This document shows positions 3,933 through 34,435 of a stretch of 64,000 nt of DNA, piece by piece. Source of the DNA: Lacibacter sp. H407 (GTDB lineage: Bacteria; Bacteroidota; Bacteroidia; Chitinophagales; Chitinophagaceae); NCBI RefSeq assembly GCF_037892605.1, contig NZ_JBBKTU010000001.1, forward strand, positions 3,906,001 through 3,970,000, read 5' to 3'. The notes under the pieces are model-generated. The model worked only from the letters and a program-made list of their open reading frames with translations. It made no database searches and was not told the DNA's origin. The translations under genes were made by a program, and so were the position numbers. Position 1 is the stretch's first letter; each line of letters begins with the position of its first letter.

Positions 3933-4934
3933 TTATTGTTTTAATTCGTCAATTCGGGAGGCAAAATAAACGCTTTTTTCGGGATGCAACAAACTTAATT
4001 TACGGTACAAATCAATGGCTTGTGTCCGTTTGCCCTGTTTTACGAGCACTTCCGCCATAGTTTCGGTGATCACTTCGGTTTGCTGATTGCTCTCGGTGGC
4101 GATTGAAACCACTTCTTTTTCCATGGAAGAATCGAGCTCTTTCTGCTCTTCCACATAGATCTTCTTCATAGAACGGAGCCACTGAGTAAAACTTTTCACC
4201 TGTTTGCCCAGTTGATCATCAGCCAGTTTTTCTTCCCGAAGTTTGATTCCTTGCGAGGCAAAATAATCGACTGTGTGAAAGGGTTCAAATGTAAAAACAG
4301 GCTTTTCCTCTTCCTGCTCTGGCTGTATTTTTATTTGCGAAATTTCTTCCCGGGCTGCCTCTGCTTCGATCGATGCCGCTGCAGCCGATTCAATATCGGC
4401 TTCTTTTGTAATAATCGCTTCATCTTTTGCTGCTTCTGCGTGCAACATTGCTTCTGCATCTAACACAGCATCTGTAATAACTGCGTCCTTTTCCTCTTTC
4501 ATAGCTTCTACTTCCAGCATTGCTTCCGCATCCATCACCGCATCGGTTATTACTGCCTGTTGCTCATCCTTCATTTCTTCCACCACAAGCAATGCCTCTG
4601 CATCGAGTGCCGCATCATTCTCATCGATAGAAATAATTTCAGGAATGGTCAGTTCTTCATCTGCTACCGGCTTTTCAGCAGAAACCAATTCTGTTATGGC
4701 AAATTTTTTCCATTGCTGCTGAAGTAATAGTGGTTCGTTGAAATACAACGCTGCTTTTTGTAATTGCTTTTCAGCATTGATACGACCGCTTTGTTTTTGT
4801 TTCGCTGCGAGTAATAGTTGGGCAGTACCAAACCATGGGTATTGATATGCAAGCATCTCAAGGTCAGCTTCTGAACATTCATTCAGCAAAAAAGGTTGCT
4901 GCAGCAATCGGTGAAATACTTCTGCATTGATCAT
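3933..4934 (-). CDS. acidic cytoplasmic protein with tandem 24-residue repeats
   Basis: 333 aa, no signal peptide or membrane helix. The N-terminal about 80 residues form a conserved helical region (LEMLAYQYPWFGTAQLLLA). The middle holds three imperfect 24-residue repeats (about residues 110-175) with core DAEAMLEVEAMKEE and VITDAV, strongly Glu/Ala-rich and probably helical. The C terminus has a TPR-like unit (AEVLVKQGKRTQAIDLYRKL). Genes of this kind sit before secG in related Bacteroidota, but I know no function. Repeat number probably varies between strains. It sits 22 bases downstream of lptE. Confidence 0.8.
   Translation of the reverse strand: MINAEVFHRLLQQPFLLNECSEADLEMLAYQYPWFGTAQLLLAAKQKQSGRINAEKQLQKAALYFNEPLLLQQQWKKFAITELVSAEKPVADEELTIPEIISIDENDAALDAEALLVVEEMKDEQQAVITDAVMDAEAMLEVEAMKEEKDAVITDAVLDAEAMLHAEAAKDEAIITKEADIESAAAASIEAEAAREEISQIKIQPEQEEEKPVFTFEPFHTVDYFASQGIKLREEKLADDQLGKQVKSFTQWLRSMKKIYVEEQKELDSSMEKEVVSIATESNQQTEVITETMAEVLVKQGKRTQAIDLYRKLSLLHPEKSVYFASRIDELKQ
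4410..4607 (-). repeat. in-frame tandem repeat, 72-bp unit, about 2.7 copies
   Basis: The units encode LDAEALLVVEEMKDEQQAVI-type, MDAEAMLEVEAMKEEKDAVI-type and LDAEAMLHAEAAKDEAII-type segments, each 24 residues for the first two. It lies inside the acidic protein gene and keeps the reading frame. Confidence 0.75.
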
Positions 4935-4956: not shown

Positions 4957-5538
4957 TTACCAGTTTGAGAAAATACGGTTGAATATTTCGTCGGTCATGT
5001 TTTGAACGATCAGATCTGTCAAAGAATTTTCGGCCTGACTCAACGAAAGACTGGCGGAGAAATCAAAGTTGCGGGTAAGATCTGCTTCAAAACTTTTTTT
5101 ATCGTCCAACCGATTCTTGAACACCAAATGCACCGTAACATTCAAACGGTTTGATGCAGCCTGTTGATTAGAGATACCGGACGTTGTTACATAGTAATCA
5201 GTGATCTGTCCGCTGATATCGTAATGTGCTTCATCGCTGTTGGTTTGCGACAAGCGTGTTTGATTCACAATTTTCTGACGCAGCTTATCTGTTAAACGCT
5301 GACTCAACTGCGGATTGATGATCCGTGCACGGTTATCGATGTAATTCACCTTCACCGTTTTTACTTCAGGTGGAATGGACACATCTTTAAAGGAATAACA
5401 AGAGGAGAACAGGTACGATGTAAGAAGTACGATGTACGAAACCACTGCCAACTTACCGGATTTGATAAATTGCAACGACCCGTACTTTGTACTTTGTACT
5501 TTGTACTTTCGATTTTTATCAGAGTTCTTCAATATCAT
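4957..5538 (-). CDS. lptE: LptE family LPS-assembly lipoprotein with a repeat-derived signal peptide
   Basis: 193 aa as read from ATG at 5536-5538, which overlaps the 3' end of the sigma-54 activator gene by 20 bases. A lipobox LFSSC puts the lipidated Cys at residue 47. The mature part begins CYSFKDVSIPPEVKTVKV, the usual start of Bacteroidota LptE-like proteins, followed by the LptE fold (LSQRLTDKLRQKIVNQTRL, AHYDISGQITDYYVT). LptE plugs the LptD barrel that inserts lipopolysaccharide. The 46-residue leader is unusually long, and residues 10-20 and 33-43 are encoded by TACTTTG / TACGATGTAC-type repeats found in intergenic DNA elsewhere in the window. TTG at codon 30 or GTG at codon 32 are alternative starts. 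Confidence 0.85.
   Translation of the reverse strand: MILKNSDKNRKYKVQSTKYGSLQFIKSGKLAVVSYIVLLTSYLFSSCYSFKDVSIPPEVKTVKVNYIDNRARIINPQLSQRLTDKLRQKIVNQTRLSQTNSDEAHYDISGQITDYYVTTSGISNQQAASNRLNVTVHLVFKNRLDDKKSFEADLTRNFDFSASLSLSQAENSLTDLIVQNMTDEIFNRIFSNW
5411..5441. repeat. TACGATGTAC-type degenerate word repeat inside lptE
   Basis: Reads TACGATGTAAGAAGTACGAT then GTACGAA on the plus strand. It encodes residues 33-43 (VSYIVLLTSYL) of the LptE signal peptide. Related words occur at 5481-5511, 17872-17899, 25458-25486 and 46948-46979. Confidence 0.7.
5481..5511. repeat. 7-bp tandem repeat (TACTTTG) inside lptE 5' end
   Basis: Three exact TACTTTG units and a fourth degenerate one. It encodes RKYKVQSTKYG (residues 10-20) of the lptE leader. 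It is the same vocabulary as the TACGATGTACGAAGTAC intergenic repeats. Confidence 0.75.
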
Positions 5539-17871: not shown

Positions 17872-17899
17872 GTACGATGTATGATGTACGAAGTACGAT
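17872..17899. repeat. TACGATGTAC-type degenerate word repeat in the parE leader
   Basis: Reads TACGATGTATGATGTACGAA then GTACGATA. Same vocabulary as the repeats in lptE and at 25458-25486 and 46948-46979. Confidence 0.7.
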
Positions 17900-28998: not shown

Positions 28999-30537
28999 TT
29001 AAGGTTCAACAAACTGTTGTTCGTTCAGCTCCACAACCAGCAGGCCGGGCTGCAGTTCGATGAAGTTTTTGCCCATTGCTGCAATATTTCCTTTTAAGAA
29101 TTCATCTTTTTCCTGCTGTGCCTGATAGTAGAAAAAATAATACTTCACCCGGTACTGTTTCAACTCTTTTACCAATTCCTCCATAGGATAGATCGGTTTC
29201 ACGATCGTATAAAAGGGACTGCCTGTCCGGTAAGCAATTACCTGGCAAAAATCTGCTTTAATGTTTGATGTAAACCTTCCATCAATTCCCCTGGCTTTCA
29301 TGTTATCGGCCGTATCAAATATTTCTTTGTGATCGTATATTTTATCTTTTAATAAATTGATCGGCTCCAGCAAGAAACTTCCAAAAAACAGTAACCAAAT
29401 GATCACCCGTTGCCATTTGAGCAACGGAAAGCGTTGAAACAACAATTGCAGTAACCATCCACCGGCAACAAAAAATATAAAACTGGTTGCCCATATAAAT
29501 CTTGTTTCAAGATGTAATAAAATATAACCTGATGGCAGTACAAGCACTCCAATAATGAGGTATAACCATTCTTTGCTTTTTTCTTTGAAGTACATAAATC
29601 CACTCAGTAATAAAATTGCCGGCGATAAAAATGAAAGATCATGAATGCATTTCAACCATTGCTGAAAGTTGAATAATATCACACGTAGTTGATGTAACGC
29701 AACGGTGATGAAAGGAGCAGAGCCGATATTATCAACCCGCATATGCCAGGGATCTTCCCATACAGATGATGAACCTTCATGTGGTGGTGGATGAATGATG
29801 GGGCCGGGGGGCGGACCATCAGCAAAATTCCAATGGGCATTAAACTTTCCAAAAGCGATCATCCATTCTCCATACTTCCAATGTAACGCCATCAGCCACG
29901 GAAACGTAAACAAAAAGAACATGAAATAACCAGCAGCTAATTGTTTTATAGCATTCCGCTTATTGGGATTGAGAAATAAATGAATGACAAAGAAGTGAAA
30001 GATAAAAAATGGGAACCCGTACGACTTTGCGAGGTAAAGTGTTGAACCAATTGTTCCGGCTAATAAATTTTTAGGAATGCTTGAAAAAAAATCTTCTTCT
30101 TTGATCAGGTTAAAATAGATAAGCAGCAGAAAAACAAGCAGTACATCTGCTGCCAATTCAAAATGACAATACGACAAAAGAATAATGACTGATGCGTATT
30201 GAATAGCTGCCTTCAACCATAACTCCAGAGAAAATTTATTGAGCAGGGAATGTAACACGATCAATGAGCCTATGGAAAAAATAAGATTGCTTACTTTAAA
30301 TGCGGCCCAATCATTTAATCCGGCTTTGATCAAAGGAATCACCAACCATGAATGCAATGGATTCCAGAAACCATTTACTGCAAGTTTTAAATCGCCGTCA
30401 ATGTAATGATGTGCCACTTCCATGTAACCAATTGCATCAAGGTCTGATACGTATTGATAAAGTGGCCAGGTTACCACAAACAAAACAATAAACAACAGAG
30501 CGGAAAAAGGCAGACGTTGGTTATACAGTAAATTCAT
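28999..30537 (-). CDS. multi-pass membrane protein, possible GT-C glycosyltransferase
   Basis: 512 aa with about ten to eleven transmembrane helices. The first extracytoplasmic loop has an acidic cluster (YVSDLDAIGYMEVAHHYIDG) in the position of the Asp of GT-C lipid-linked glycosyltransferases (PMT/ArnT-like). A larger soluble region lies at the C terminus (about 380-512). The membrane arrangement is consistent with a GT39/ArnT-like enzyme, but no exact family is recognised. It overlaps the preceding metal-receptor gene by 17 bases, which suggests translational coupling. Confidence 0.7.
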   Translation of the reverse strand: MNLLYNQRLPFSALLFIVLFVVTWPLYQYVSDLDAIGYMEVAHHYIDGDLKLAVNGFWNPLHSWLVIPLIKAGLNDWAAFKVSNLIFSIGSLIVLHSLLNKFSLELWLKAAIQYASVIILLSYCHFELAADVLLVFLLLIYFNLIKEEDFFSSIPKNLLAGTIGSTLYLAKSYGFPFFIFHFFVIHLFLNPNKRNAIKQLAAGYFMFFLFTFPWLMALHWKYGEWMIAFGKFNAHWNFADGPPPGPIIHPPPHEGSSSVWEDPWHMRVDNIGSAPFITVALHQLRVILFNFQQWLKCIHDLSFLSPAILLLSGFMYFKEKSKEWLYLIIGVLVLPSGYILLHLETRFIWATSFIFFVAGGWLLQLLFQRFPLLKWQRVIIWLLFFGSFLLEPINLLKDKIYDHKEIFDTADNMKARGIDGRFTSNIKADFCQVIAYRTGSPFYTIVKPIYPMEELVKELKQYRVKYYFFYYQAQQEKDEFLKGNIAAMGKNFIELQPGLLVVELNEQQFVEP

Positions 30538-31342
30538 CGTTTAAAAATAAGCTTTCCTTTAGTTTTCTGAAATAGTTTGCTGCATGGATCAACCGGCTGC
30601 CATACCAACTAAACAGTTCGCCATCAACTATTTTTAAATGAGGCATTGAAGGATTTACTGTTTGCCACTCGTTTGCAAACAAATGAAGATGTTTTTCTTT
30701 GAACGGAAATGGTTCTGATGAAAAGAGAACAACGTCTGCCTGTGCATTGATCAATTCCTGCATACTGATAACAGGATAACGGGCATGGTGAGCAAATACA
30801 TTTTCAAAACCTGCAGCTTCCATCATTGTATGGATAAATGTATCGCCGCCAACTGTCATGTACGGCTTTTGCCAGATGAGGTAAGCCGCTTTCACCGAAA
30901 TATTGGTTTTTGGAAGAGATGCAAATTCGTTCTGTATCGTTTGAATAATTTCTGCGGCACTGCCTTTCTTTCCGGTAAGAGAGCCAATCGTGGCCATCAT
31001 TTCATATGCATCTGCAAGCGTTGCAATATCACTGCACCAAACGGGGCAAAATGCTGCAATAGCCTCAACCTGTTCTTTTACATTTTCTTCTTTACTTCCA
31101 ATTACAAGATCGGGCTTTAACGACTCGATCAACGGCAGGTTCAATTGCTTGGTTCCTCCAATTCTTGTTTTCGATTGAAACCATTGTGCTGGATGCACGC
31201 AAAATTTGGTGATGCCGATCACTTCATCCGTAAGTCCAAGATCATAAAGAAATTCTGTTTGAGATGGTACGATGGAAATAATTCGCCGGGGAAGGGAAGG
31301 GGGAGAAAAAAGATTGCCTGTCTGGTGGTGAACTTGTTTCAT
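30521..31342 (-). CDS. helical-backbone metal receptor / cobalamin-binding (TroA-BtuF fold) without signal peptide
   Basis: 273 aa. The fold starts at RRIISIVPSQTEFLYDLGL and continues through SLKPDLVIGSKEENV and ISMQELINAQADVVLFSSEPF, the substrate-binding domain of B12/siderophore ABC importers. There is no signal peptide or lipobox; the N terminus MKQVHHQTGNLFSPPSLP is hydrophilic, so it may act in the cytosol. The start codon sits in the loop of a strong hairpin (see 31306-31361). It precedes and overlaps the multi-pass membrane gene. No ABC permease or ATPase is adjacent. Confidence 0.82.
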   Translation of the reverse strand: MKQVHHQTGNLFSPPSLPRRIISIVPSQTEFLYDLGLTDEVIGITKFCVHPAQWFQSKTRIGGTKQLNLPLIESLKPDLVIGSKEENVKEQVEAIAAFCPVWCSDIATLADAYEMMATIGSLTGKKGSAAEIIQTIQNEFASLPKTNISVKAAYLIWQKPYMTVGGDTFIHTMMEAAGFENVFAHHARYPVISMQELINAQADVVLFSSEPFPFKEKHLHLFANEWQTVNPSMPHLKIVDGELFSWYGSRLIHAANYFRKLKESLFLNDEFTV

Positions 31343-31361
31343 TTCATTTCAGACAGGCAAT
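31306..31361 (-). promoter_or_regulatory. terminator-like hairpin enclosing the start codon of the metal receptor gene
   Basis: On the minus strand ATTGCCTGTCTG (31361-31350) pairs perfectly with CAGACAGGCAAT (31324-31313), a 12-bp stem with 25-base loop. The loop contains the start ATG (31342-31340). The second arm is followed after one C by TTTTTT (31311-31306). A candidate attenuator or translation-gating hairpin; function is inferred. Confidence 0.6.
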
Positions 31362-31483
31362 TTAATTAAATTAAGCGGTTCCTTGGTGTTTGATGGTTTT
31401 CCTTTGGTACGAAATTTTAATTCAGAGGATTTTGGAACCGAGTTTCTTCTTTCTTTCAAAATATCCCCCTTTCGGGCGAATAA

Positions 31484-31559
31484 AAAGAAAAAAAGATCTG
31501 GATTTCAGAGGATAATTGGTTTGGATTTCAATTTGTTTTCTTAGGATCCAGATCTTTTT
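31484..31559 (-). terminator. hairpin with long loop, probable leftward terminator
   Basis: ATCCAGATCTTTTT (31546-31559) pairs perfectly, 14 bp, with AAAAAGATCTGGAT (31490-31503) across a 42-base loop. Read leftward, the second arm is followed by TTTTTTCTTTTTATT, so a transcript coming from about 31.9 kb could end here. Confidence 0.6.
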
Positions 31560-31621
31560 AATAAAGCCTTTTTTGGTCTCTTGGTTTCCGCAACAGATTT
31601 CTCTGGGTCGGTTGGCTTTTT

Positions 31622-31767
31622 GGTTCTTCAGGATGTTTGGACTAGGGTCTTTCGGTTAGGATGTTTGGATTTTTCTTTGGTTTTTCTTCGGACGTTTGGA
31701 CTTTAACTTTGGTTCTTCTTCGGACGTTTGGATTTCAATTTTGGTTCTTCGTTAGGATGTTGGTTTC
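31622..31767. repeat. phased array of GGAYGTTTGGA elements
   Basis: The core GGA[CT]GTTTGGA starts at 31631, 31659, 31690 and 31722, with a degenerate copy GGATGTTGG at 31755. Spacings are 28, 31, 32 and 33 bp. Two adjacent 32-bp units (31679-31710 and 31711-31742) differ at only a few positions. It looks like an iteron or an RNA-level repeat. Confidence 0.75.
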
Positions 31768-32042
31768 GGTTTTTTCGTTAGTCAGGATAAATTGGATTCT
31801 TCAACGGTCTTTGGTTCTCTTTTAGGTTGTTGGATTAAAACTACTTCTAAATAACTTAAGTTGATCGGTATTGGATTTTTTGTTTGGTTTTTTAATGGAT
31901 TTGAATATTTAGTCTAAGTGTTTTTCTTAAGTCAACAGCGTTTTGTTATTCAATCAACTTACAATACAAAAGTAAAAGGACTGTTAAGACTTAACAAGAG
32001 CAGTATTTCTCTTTTTTGCAACAACGGTATTTACCCCGCATA

Positions 32043-32182
32043 ACGTAGAACTACGCAACTATATGCCGTGTAGTTACGTATTCGGCGCTGAGGTTGCGCT
32101 GAAACTTAAAAAAATAAGACGAAACGCAAAAAGCAGAACACAAATTGCGTGTTTTACGCAGCACTATATCTTAGCAGCGCCG
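32043..32182. other. cluster of inverted repeats downstream of the antiporter gene
   Basis: CGTAG-AA-CTACG (32044-32055) and ACGT-AG-AACTAC pairing with GTAGTTACGT (32043-32054 with 32070-32079). CGGCGCTG (32083-32090) pairs with CAGCGCCG (32175-32182) around an 84-base insert that itself contains GCGT-TTTT-ACGC-type arms. Structured DNA or RNA; no known family recognised. Confidence 0.5.
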
Positions 32183-32191
32183 GTAACAATT

Positions 32192-34435
32192 TTATCCGAT
32201 CGTATTGATCAATTTCTTTTCACCTACAATCCAAACAACATCACCTTGCTCAAATACAAAATCTGAAGCAGGATTCAGCAAACGTTCCCCATTTCGTTCA
32301 ACACCTACTACCAGTCCGTTTGTTGCAGCACGTATTCCTGATTCACGGATGGTGTGATGAATAAACGGAGAATCACTGTTCAATGTAAACTTATCAAGCT
32401 CCATTTCAACTTCCTGTTGTTTTTCCAATTGTCTTTTATCTGGCCGGAGAACCGCATTCATTTTTATTTCCTGTGCATCCGTACAAATAATAAACAGCTT
32501 ATCACCCGGAAAAATCCGCTCCGTACGCTGAGGTGAGGGAATCGATAGTTGCCCACGCCTGATCATAGCAATATTGATACCGATTTTTTCACGCCATTGC
32601 AATTCTTCAAGTGTTTTACCAAGGATGAATGAATTGATCTCGGGTTCAATTTCAAATGTGACCATATGTGCATCCCAGGGAGCCATCGTTACATCACGTT
32701 TACTGGCGAGTAAATTCAATTGTTTTATTTCTTCCTGTAACTCCCGATCGTTCAGATTCCGAATGAAACGATTTTCGATCTTATCATATAAGAGTTGTAT
32801 TTTTTTTCTGAAAATAACAAAGACTGTAATGATCAAAGCGGCAGCATATATAGCAATATGAAAAGAGAAAAATCGATTGAGCAGAAAAATGATAAAGAAT
32901 AATGCCAACGAAAGTTTGATAAACCGCATCACCCATATTGGGCCACGGTATTTTTGTTGGGCAAAGATCCTTGCAAACGATTCGTTCTGTTCGTTGCGTA
33001 CAATTAAACCCCATAGAAACGGTGCCATGATCATTAAGGTGATGCTTGCTGCAGTAATTCCACCGAATGCGTAATTAGTATTCGCTGCGATCCAGGGTGG
33101 GAGATAGGAAGCTGACAGGTAAATGATGGCTCCATTGATCGCTGAAAAAAGAATCACATTCAATACAAATGAACGAAGCAGCGATTCCCAGTCGCTTACG
33201 GAAGTGATGATCTGTGCTTCTGAACTGTAACGCAGCAATGATCTGCGCCAACGATCAGGCAGCTTGCGATCGATCCAGTTGTACACTGGTGTGCTGGCTT
33301 TGATCAAATAAGGAGTGGTAAAAGTTGTAACCGCCGAAACAGCGATGATGGTGGGGTACAGAAACTCACTGGTGAGCTTAAGGCTTGTACCCAAAGCAGC
33401 AATAATAAACGAGAACTCACCAATTTGAGCAAGGCTCATACCGGTTTGTAAAGACACCTTCAATGCATTACCTGAAATAAGTGCACCCAGTCCCGTTGTA
33501 AAAATCTTTCCGAAAATACAAACCACCGTAATCAGAGCAATTGGACCTGCATACTCTACCAGCTGCGACAAATTCACCAACATACCAACCGAAACAAAGA
33601 AGATTGCACCAAACAGATCTTTTACCGGAGTAATGAGATGTTCAATACGTTCAGCCTTTGTTGTTTCAGCCAACAATGATCCCATTACGAAAGCACCCAA
33701 TGCAGGAGAGAAGCCTGCAGATGAAGCAAGATAAACCATGAGCAAACACATAGCGATCGACACTACAAGAAGTGTTTCATCGTTCATCAGGTGCTTTGCT
33801 TTTTTTAACAGCGTTGGGATAAAAAAGATACCTGCAACAAACCAAAGCACCAGGTAGATAGCAAGTTTACCGATCGACAGTGCTGTATCAAGACTCATGA
33901 ACTGCTTACTAACAGCAAATGTTGATAGCAATACAAGCAGTGCAATGGCAATAATATCTTCTACGATGAGTATACCAAATACAAGTGTTGCAAATTTTTT
34001 CTTTTTCAATCCCAGTTCATCAACCGCTTTAATAATAATAGTAGTTGATGAAATAGCCAATGCTGCTCCAAGAAAAATACTGTCGATCGTGGACCAACCC
34101 AGTATCCATCCTGTACCAAATCCTAATGCCGACATTCCAACCGCTTCAATAGAAGCCGCAACAGAAGCAGAACCGCCTACTTCTACAAGTTTTTTAAAAC
34201 TGAACTCAAGCCCCAGACTGAATAATAAAAAGATCACTCCAATTTCAGCCCACACCTGCACATTATGAATTTCGATAACTGAAGGAAAAAATTCAAAATT
34301 TTTACTGACCAATATACCGGCCAATATATAACCAAGTACAAGCGGTTGTTTCAGCTTCTTAAACAGAAGTGTTGCAACAGCTGCCACGCCGAGTATTAAA
34401 GCAAGATCTGTAATTAAATGAGGTAAATGATTCAT
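32192..34435 (-). CDS. CPA2 (KefB-type) cation:proton antiporter with tandem TrkA-C domains
   Basis: 747 aa. The N-terminal about 380 residues form the monovalent cation:proton antiporter-2 domain (LGYILAGILV, then LGLEFSFKKLVEVGG and FSPALGAFVMGSLLAET). Additional helices span about 400-540. The C terminus has two TrkA-C (RCK_C) domains (about 575-650 and 672-747: MIRRGQLSIPSPQRTERIFP and VGVERNGERLLNPASDFVF). A TrkA-N/RCK_N nucleotide-binding domain is not evident, so ligand control differs from E. coli KefB/KefC. It likely exchanges K+ or Na+ for protons. Confidence 0.9.
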   Translation of the reverse strand: MNHLPHLITDLALILGVAAVATLLFKKLKQPLVLGYILAGILVSKNFEFFPSVIEIHNVQVWAEIGVIFLLFSLGLEFSFKKLVEVGGSASVAASIEAVGMSALGFGTGWILGWSTIDSIFLGAALAISSTTIIIKAVDELGLKKKKFATLVFGILIVEDIIAIALLVLLSTFAVSKQFMSLDTALSIGKLAIYLVLWFVAGIFFIPTLLKKAKHLMNDETLLVVSIAMCLLMVYLASSAGFSPALGAFVMGSLLAETTKAERIEHLITPVKDLFGAIFFVSVGMLVNLSQLVEYAGPIALITVVCIFGKIFTTGLGALISGNALKVSLQTGMSLAQIGEFSFIIAALGTSLKLTSEFLYPTIIAVSAVTTFTTPYLIKASTPVYNWIDRKLPDRWRRSLLRYSSEAQIITSVSDWESLLRSFVLNVILFSAINGAIIYLSASYLPPWIAANTNYAFGGITAASITLMIMAPFLWGLIVRNEQNESFARIFAQQKYRGPIWVMRFIKLSLALFFIIFLLNRFFSFHIAIYAAALIITVFVIFRKKIQLLYDKIENRFIRNLNDRELQEEIKQLNLLASKRDVTMAPWDAHMVTFEIEPEINSFILGKTLEELQWREKIGINIAMIRRGQLSIPSPQRTERIFPGDKLFIICTDAQEIKMNAVLRPDKRQLEKQQEVEMELDKFTLNSDSPFIHHTIRESGIRAATNGLVVGVERNGERLLNPASDFVFEQGDVVWIVGEKKLINTIG

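Follow-up and report, generated by a model that had tools for sequence, protein, structure and literature searches.

A repeat array upstream of a BtuF-like gene in Lacibacter sp. H407 lies within a putative multicopy noncoding RNA gene linked to LuxR-type response regulators

The window analysed here is a stretch of 64,000 nucleotides from Lacibacter sp. H407 (Chitinophagaceae; contig NZ_JBBKTU010000001.1, positions 3,906,001 to 3,970,000), whose 4.87-Mb genome is designated G000 below. An array of the word GGAYGTTTGGA lies in its noncoding interval 31343-32191, between a KefB-like antiporter gene (Na_H_Exchanger and TrkA_C domains) upstream and a BtuF-like gene downstream, both on the minus strand. 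A preliminary description had placed the array in noncoding DNA 5' of the BtuF-like gene, and this placement is correct. The array appears to form the middle of a minus-strand RNA gene with its own promoter and terminator, from which we infer transcription. The gene apparently belongs to a family with a well-conserved regulatory region, undescribed in the literature we searched and in Rfam. The features of the locus, in window coordinates, are:

30521..31342, minus strand: BtuF-like gene (Peripla_BP_2, by domain match), the downstream neighbour
31483..31962, minus strand: putative noncoding RNA gene of about 480 nt with predicted ends; promoter, 5' stem and terminator also present in relatives; covariance-model match
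31490..31559, minus strand: intrinsic terminator, formed by a hairpin (AAAAAGATCTGGAT/ATCCAGATCTTTTT) and a T run behind it; relatives within the genus have this hairpin too
31631..31767, minus strand: the reported array, TCCAAACRTCC units inside a CC-bead body (exact words, Tandem Repeats Finder, unit identity)
31857..31868, minus strand: 3' arm of a conserved 12-bp stem (alignment pairing, slid controls)
31950..31961, minus strand: 5' arm of the same stem (alignment pairing, slid controls)
31967..31974, minus strand: -7 box TACTTTTG (TAnnTTTG; promoter alignment)
31995..32011, minus strand: GAGAAATACTGCTCTTG element with the -33 TTG (promoter alignment, of which its last 8 bases are the anchor)
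32026..32035, minus strand: GGTAAATACC operator element (promoter alignment)
32044..32055, no strand assigned: CGTAGAACTACG palindrome (CGTA-N4-TACG), a likely response-regulator site and the only exact one in the window
32067..32078, no strand assigned: second palindrome CGTGTAGTTACG, with one mismatch (read from the sequence; several relatives have a second TACG-type site there)

Within the window, exact copies of GGAYGTTTGGA are confined to 31631, 31659, 31690 and 31722. Their spacings of 28, 31 and 32 bp fall within the 28-33 bp originally given; the weaker fifth copy at 31755, in which bases are lost, and the near identity of two adjacent 32-bp units (88%) were likewise described correctly. 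Tandem Repeats Finder reports a 32-bp array at 31659-31750 with 2.9 copies and a score of 131. The whole genome holds 11 exact words, four in the array and seven scattered, against 7 in a backwards control; the scattered copies are thus at chance level and the array, the sole cluster in the genome, is above it. Is this array kept in relatives? The surrounding RNA unit is, whereas the word and its spacing are not: 12 loci from other genomes of the genus contain just 0-3 exact words each, so the phasing is local, and we rejected it as the functional feature. The four-copy array is a local elaboration within the RNA. The preliminary description had also considered repeats of a structured transcript, and this suggestion was right in kind, as the repeats, which read TCCAAACRTCC on the minus strand, sit inside a promoter-to-terminator unit conserved in Chitinophagaceae.

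A covariance model (R1), built from an alignment of 19 5' domains that includes the window sequence itself, matches 31857-31966 with 84.9 bits. In the 5' stem, 99.1% of the alignment cells are paired, compared to at most 49.5% in slid controls, and its variation consists largely of G-U wobbles (at one pair, UG 52 and UA 29), as an RNA would show. The minus strand is G-poor and CC-rich; this strand asymmetry, together with the wobbles, points to selection on an RNA. Folding of the RNA body on the minus strand is only slightly better than that of shuffles (z -1.23), and plus-strand folding of the region is no better (z 0.00). No conserved open reading frame was found among 37 RNAs of the family, whose longest sense frame has a median of 33 amino acids, versus 29 in shuffles.

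With a threshold of E <= 0.01, 86 of 244 Chitinophagaceae genomes, from 36 of 101 genera, have R1 matches, and a single genome may have as many as 10. Of 395 genomes drawn from the whole class, Chitinophagaceae members included, four match (E <= 0.001), all of them Chitinophagaceae. The full intergenic DNA matches 13 of the 14 genomes of the genus that were searched and 14 of 147 Chitinophagaceae genomes, mostly in part, with its own genome counted in each case. Among the matches listed for a 21-base pattern in named genomes are Lacibacter, Ferruginibacter, Flavisolibacter, Flavihumibacter, Ginsengibacter, Terrimonas, Niastella, Longitalea, Flaviaesturariibacter and Chitinophaga; unrelated records among them (e.g. 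Legionella, Corynebacterium) were taken for probable chance matches. Copies occur singly or in tandem arrays (L016, L067, L070, L091, L093, L098 and others), most with their own promoter and terminator. Neither the window nor 17 loci of relatives match an Rfam release 15 family at gathering score, a relaxed Rfam scan of 31300-32260 returns six matches, all to microRNA or snoRNA families and all scoring far under the respective cut-off, and literature searches brought up no recognised description of this RNA. For the comparisons that follow, 82 of 84 R1 matches were used, after removal of one duplicate locus and one truncated match; this sample is biased to strong matches and counts tandem copies separately.

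If not the 11-mer, what is conserved in the body of these RNAs? Terminators were called automatically in 58 of the 82 copies; manual removal of four doubtful calls and a length range of 200-560 left 47 RNAs, of which 37 non-redundant ones were kept for word statistics. Their bodies contain 40% A, 23% C, 12% G and 25% U. ATCCAA occurs 121 times versus 16 in dinucleotide shuffles, and runs of exactly two C 698 times versus 324 expected, while runs of three or more are fewer than expected (62 versus 96) and CCCA, TCCC and CCCC are depleted; the copies are mutually related, and such shuffle controls therefore overstate their independence. The base before CC is nearly always A or U, the one after it A, U or, in fewer cases, G; the spacing of CC shows an excess at 6-12 nt. 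The RNA of the window, a near-duplicate outside this set, was measured separately: 12.5% of its strand is G, and its 480 nt carry 35 isolated CC, versus 13.8 when shuffled (maximum 23 of 1000). The twelve best-scoring 300-nt segments of the 64 kb, both strands considered, all come from the minus strand of this locus. Across the family, it is a G-poor string of isolated CC every 6-12 nt, not the 11-mer, that the bodies have in common.

The promoter of the window copy reads TTG-N20-TACTTTTG (31997-31967, minus strand), in agreement with the Bacteroidota promoter motif TTG/TAnnTTTG; the spacer between the -33 TTG and the -7 box measures 20 bp in 75 of the 82 copies. The 82 upstream regions were aligned on the -33 element, whose last eight bases are thus conserved by choice. 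Their consensus comprises GTAnnTTTACGA, GTAAATACCGA and AAAATnGnGCAATAnTGCTCTTG, each at a constant offset, with a distance of 20 bp from the first to the second. Exact CGTAN4TACG palindromes are present in 37 of the 82 regions (0.07 in shuffles), and 64 have one with at most one mismatch (1.7 in shuffles). A phased DNA array does exist at this locus, in the promoter and not in the repeat block. A composite-operator scan of G000 returned 10 matches with at most two mismatches, compared to 28 in a backwards control, and hence no wider regulon is seen; in the pattern used, the TTG was shifted by one base, and the RNA promoter itself scored two mismatches as a result. One other site among those listed (L281) also has all 12 operator bases; it was taken for chance, as it falls within a stop-free stretch of 459 codons on the opposite strand, without the remaining promoter elements.

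Response regulators of two types, both with Response_reg and GerE (LuxR) domains, are among the nearest open reading frames of 12 of the 82 copies. Divergent RNA-regulator neighbours amount to at least 27 pairs in at least 21 genomes, with gaps of 228-478 bp. With one such regulator as query (E <= 1e-60), 100 of the 244 genomes are positive, namely all 86 with the RNA and 14 of the 158 without (Fisher 1.4e-51, relatedness ignored). These 14 and a further 14 regulator-negative genomes were rescanned with R1 at a sensitive setting (E <= 1), which gave six weak matches in the 28 genomes. The best three (E 0.012-0.018; two in G025, one in G061) are divergent to regulators at 257-302 bp and possess the promoter and stem anatomy. 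A fourth (G061, E 0.90), which is not next to the regulator match, has a CC-bead body and a stretch that resembles the promoter; the remaining two, in G122 and G023, are unlike the RNA. In G000 itself, a similar promoter (TTG-N20-TACATTTG) is found at about 5030-5130 of locus L228, minus strand, divergent to the second response regulator; R1 detects nothing there, and a diverged RNA paralogue may be transcribed from this promoter.

What could such an RNA do? Gene anatomy, conservation, multicopy state, motif statistics and regulator linkage are plain in the DNA, and on them we base a proposal in which transcription, regulator binding and a titrated protein partner are predicted. An RNA of about 480 nt, one member of a multicopy Chitinophagaceae family, would be transcribed from its own minus-strand promoter, and response regulators of the LuxR/NarL type, acting on the upstream palindrome array, would most likely be the switch. 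Its G-poor, largely unstructured body, with isolated WCCW sites every 6-12 nt, would then titrate a single-strand RNA-binding protein as a multivalent decoy. We judge this account of a response-regulator-driven RNA family with a titrating CC body to be somewhat likelier true than false. The titrating design is suggested by the combination of a response-regulator-type promoter, multicopy noncoding RNA and a largely unstructured string of a short repeated motif, as in RsmX/Y/Z.

Which protein might be titrated? The most plausible partner would be an RRM-domain protein, because Hfq and CsrA were not found where they were sought. Hfq is found in none of the 244 Chitinophagaceae genomes at the curated cut-off (three weak matches fall below it), and CsrA (PF02599) has no match in G000, the one genome searched, while the same search matches 3 of 14 control genomes. 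RRM_1, in turn, is present in 223 of the 244 genomes, including all 86 with the RNA. AGGATGT, as found on the plus strand of the array, resembles the CsrA consensus; plus-strand CsrA sites were nevertheless discarded, as G000 has no CsrA match and promoter and terminator both belong to the minus strand. Tandem copies in G058 (L067, L070) adjoin a cold-shock-domain-like and a Tex-like gene, both of RNA-binding types and named from sequence; as candidate partners these were dropped, since they stand beside the RNA in G058 only.

Several observations weigh against this proposal. Covariation in the 5' stem is weak: there is one double change, equalled in 171 of 500 shuffles of the 84-row alignment (25 of 500 for the 19-row alignment), and with double compensatory changes limited to this one pair, covariation is not itself proof of an RNA. 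The co-occurrence of RNA and regulator ignores phylogeny, and the set that has both could be one clade. Of the 14 regulator-positive genomes lacking the RNA, 11 remain without a match at E <= 1 and one more has only an implausible match; in G000, moreover, the regulators sit elsewhere (L228), far from the copy studied here. RRM proteins are common in RNA-negative genomes too, and of the neighbour clusters examined none was recognised as an RRM gene. Finally, mRNA leaders defined by mechanical open reading frame calls (168 in G000, 197 in genome G017) are not enriched in ATCCAA (3 versus 4.9 and 7 versus 5.1, respectively). They show a mild excess of ATCCT (19 versus 9.7; 22 versus 10.3), ATCC (47 versus 33.4; 60 versus 42.2) and AACCA (33 versus 22.3; 33 versus 25.0). 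This test is essentially negative for a set of targets that share the motif, and as such counts against titration.

The same leaders bear on a different mode of action, in which the RNA would work by base pairing as a multi-seed antisense small RNA, with its numerous unpaired UCC/ACC stretches as seeds for G-rich mRNA sites. The seeds are indeed C-rich and mostly single-stranded, multicopy paralogous FopS small RNAs of Bacteroides pair with targets according to an excerpt of PMC11697453, and the leaders contain a mild excess of GGAT (37 versus 27.9 in G000, 34 versus 28.8 in G017). The longer complements, however, are unenriched: TTGGAT, ATTGGA and TGGTT occur 3, 2 and 12 times in G000 (versus 4.3, 4.1 and 17.7) and 5, 2 and 17 times in G017 (versus 3.5, 3.4 and 18.3). 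Many short, degenerate seeds that avoid CCC are better accommodated by recognition through a protein, and we hold base pairing to be unlikely.

Could the protein be termination factor Rho, sequestered or recruited by a natural rut-like RNA? Rut sites are G-poor with spaced YC dinucleotides, a description that a low G content over 200-500 nt and a CC every 6-12 nt would fit. Rho accepts any YC, yet TCTC, ACTC and CCCC are depleted; besides, a strong rut RNA should presumably terminate itself early, yet many copies end in intrinsic terminators. The involvement of Rho therefore seems distinctly improbable to us.

We give similarly little credence to a cis-acting leader or attenuator of the BtuF-like gene in which termination at the 31490-31559 hairpin would be regulated. 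RNA and gene share a strand, a BtuF-like frame is one of the two nearest downstream in 38 of the 82 copies, a synteny that spans many genomes, and within the genus a hairpin encloses the btuF start codon. In contrast, paralogues adjoin unrelated genes and form tandem arrays, most with promoter and terminator of their own, and no Rfam family such as the cobalamin riboswitch matches at gathering score. The connection to the BtuF-like gene made in the preliminary description thus holds as synteny, and fails as dedicated btuF regulation, since many copies lie beside other genes. The start-codon hairpin of the window (12 bp, ATTGCCTGTCTG/CAGACAGGCAAT, 31313-31361, minus strand) has a T run after it; 7 of 8 relatives' loci contain a comparable hairpin with a long loop and L005 one with a short loop, and translational or attenuation control by this element is possible. 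On the upstream side, a cystathionine beta-synthase-like frame (named from sequence) is among the two nearest in 40 of the 82 copies. The KefB-like antiporter (32192-34435) occupies the place that this gene has in many relatives, which suggests a local rearrangement.

Iteron-like, helically phased protein-binding DNA sites, as first proposed from four near-regular copies at about 31 bp, are a far-fetched explanation, given that relatives keep neither word nor phasing, that strand asymmetry and 5'-stem wobbles point to an RNA, that RNA-gene anatomy surrounds the array, and that an antiporter and a binding protein flank it rather than a replication initiator.

Other repeats of the window comprise the heptanucleotides GTACGAT (twice) and GTACTTT, about four copies each, at 5413-5509 and 17872-17899, and a 72-bp repeat in two copies at 4432-4574 (Tandem Repeats Finder score 160).

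How do bacteria without Hfq at the curated cut-off, as in all 244 genomes here, organise post-transcriptional control? This is a question on which the RNA family may bear, and a conserved multicopy RNA with a defined, repeated motif of the protein-binding kind and a link to specific regulators offers a direct handle on the predicted protein partner. Multicopy paralogous small RNAs in Bacteroidota have a precedent in FopS/GibS of Bacteroides thetaiotaomicron. FopS, compared here by its description only, in an excerpt on Bacteroidaceae, carries base-pairing seeds, unlike the present RNA, which is CC-beaded, linked to response regulators and, across the genome sets scanned with R1, yielded matches in Chitinophagaceae only. 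The RRM protein RbpB of the same species binds preferentially within single-stranded regions, according to the excerpt of PMC11697453.

Protein-titrating RNA control is known from bacteria with CsrA, and GacA is a LuxR-type response regulator. CsrB/CsrC and RsmX/Y/Z, the titrating RNAs of the GacS/GacA (BarA/UvrY) system, resemble the present family as multicopy noncoding RNAs with a repeated short motif of the protein-binding kind. An excerpt of PMC2375449 describes multiple GGA motifs in RsmX/Y/Z that sequester RsmA, and a palindromic upstream activating sequence as potential GacA site. The likeness to Gac/Rsm may extend to a LuxR-type response regulator linked to an upstream palindrome; here palindromes, co-occurrence and divergent adjacency are observed, and binding is predicted. 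There are differences as well. The GGA of CsrB/RsmZ is on the RNA strand, whereas our RNA carries WCCW, with GGA words on the opposite strand; its body is largely unstructured, CsrA was not found in G000, the phylum is a different one, and the RNA is often divergent to the regulator gene. Whether Chitinophagaceae hold a complete, independently evolved Gac/Rsm counterpart, in which paired LuxR-type regulators drive CC-beaded multicopy RNAs that sequester a global RRM-type protein without CsrA or Hfq, is an idea that we entertain tentatively and think more probably wrong than right. By analogy, the best reading is that this RNA works like CsrB/RsmZ without being a member of that family.
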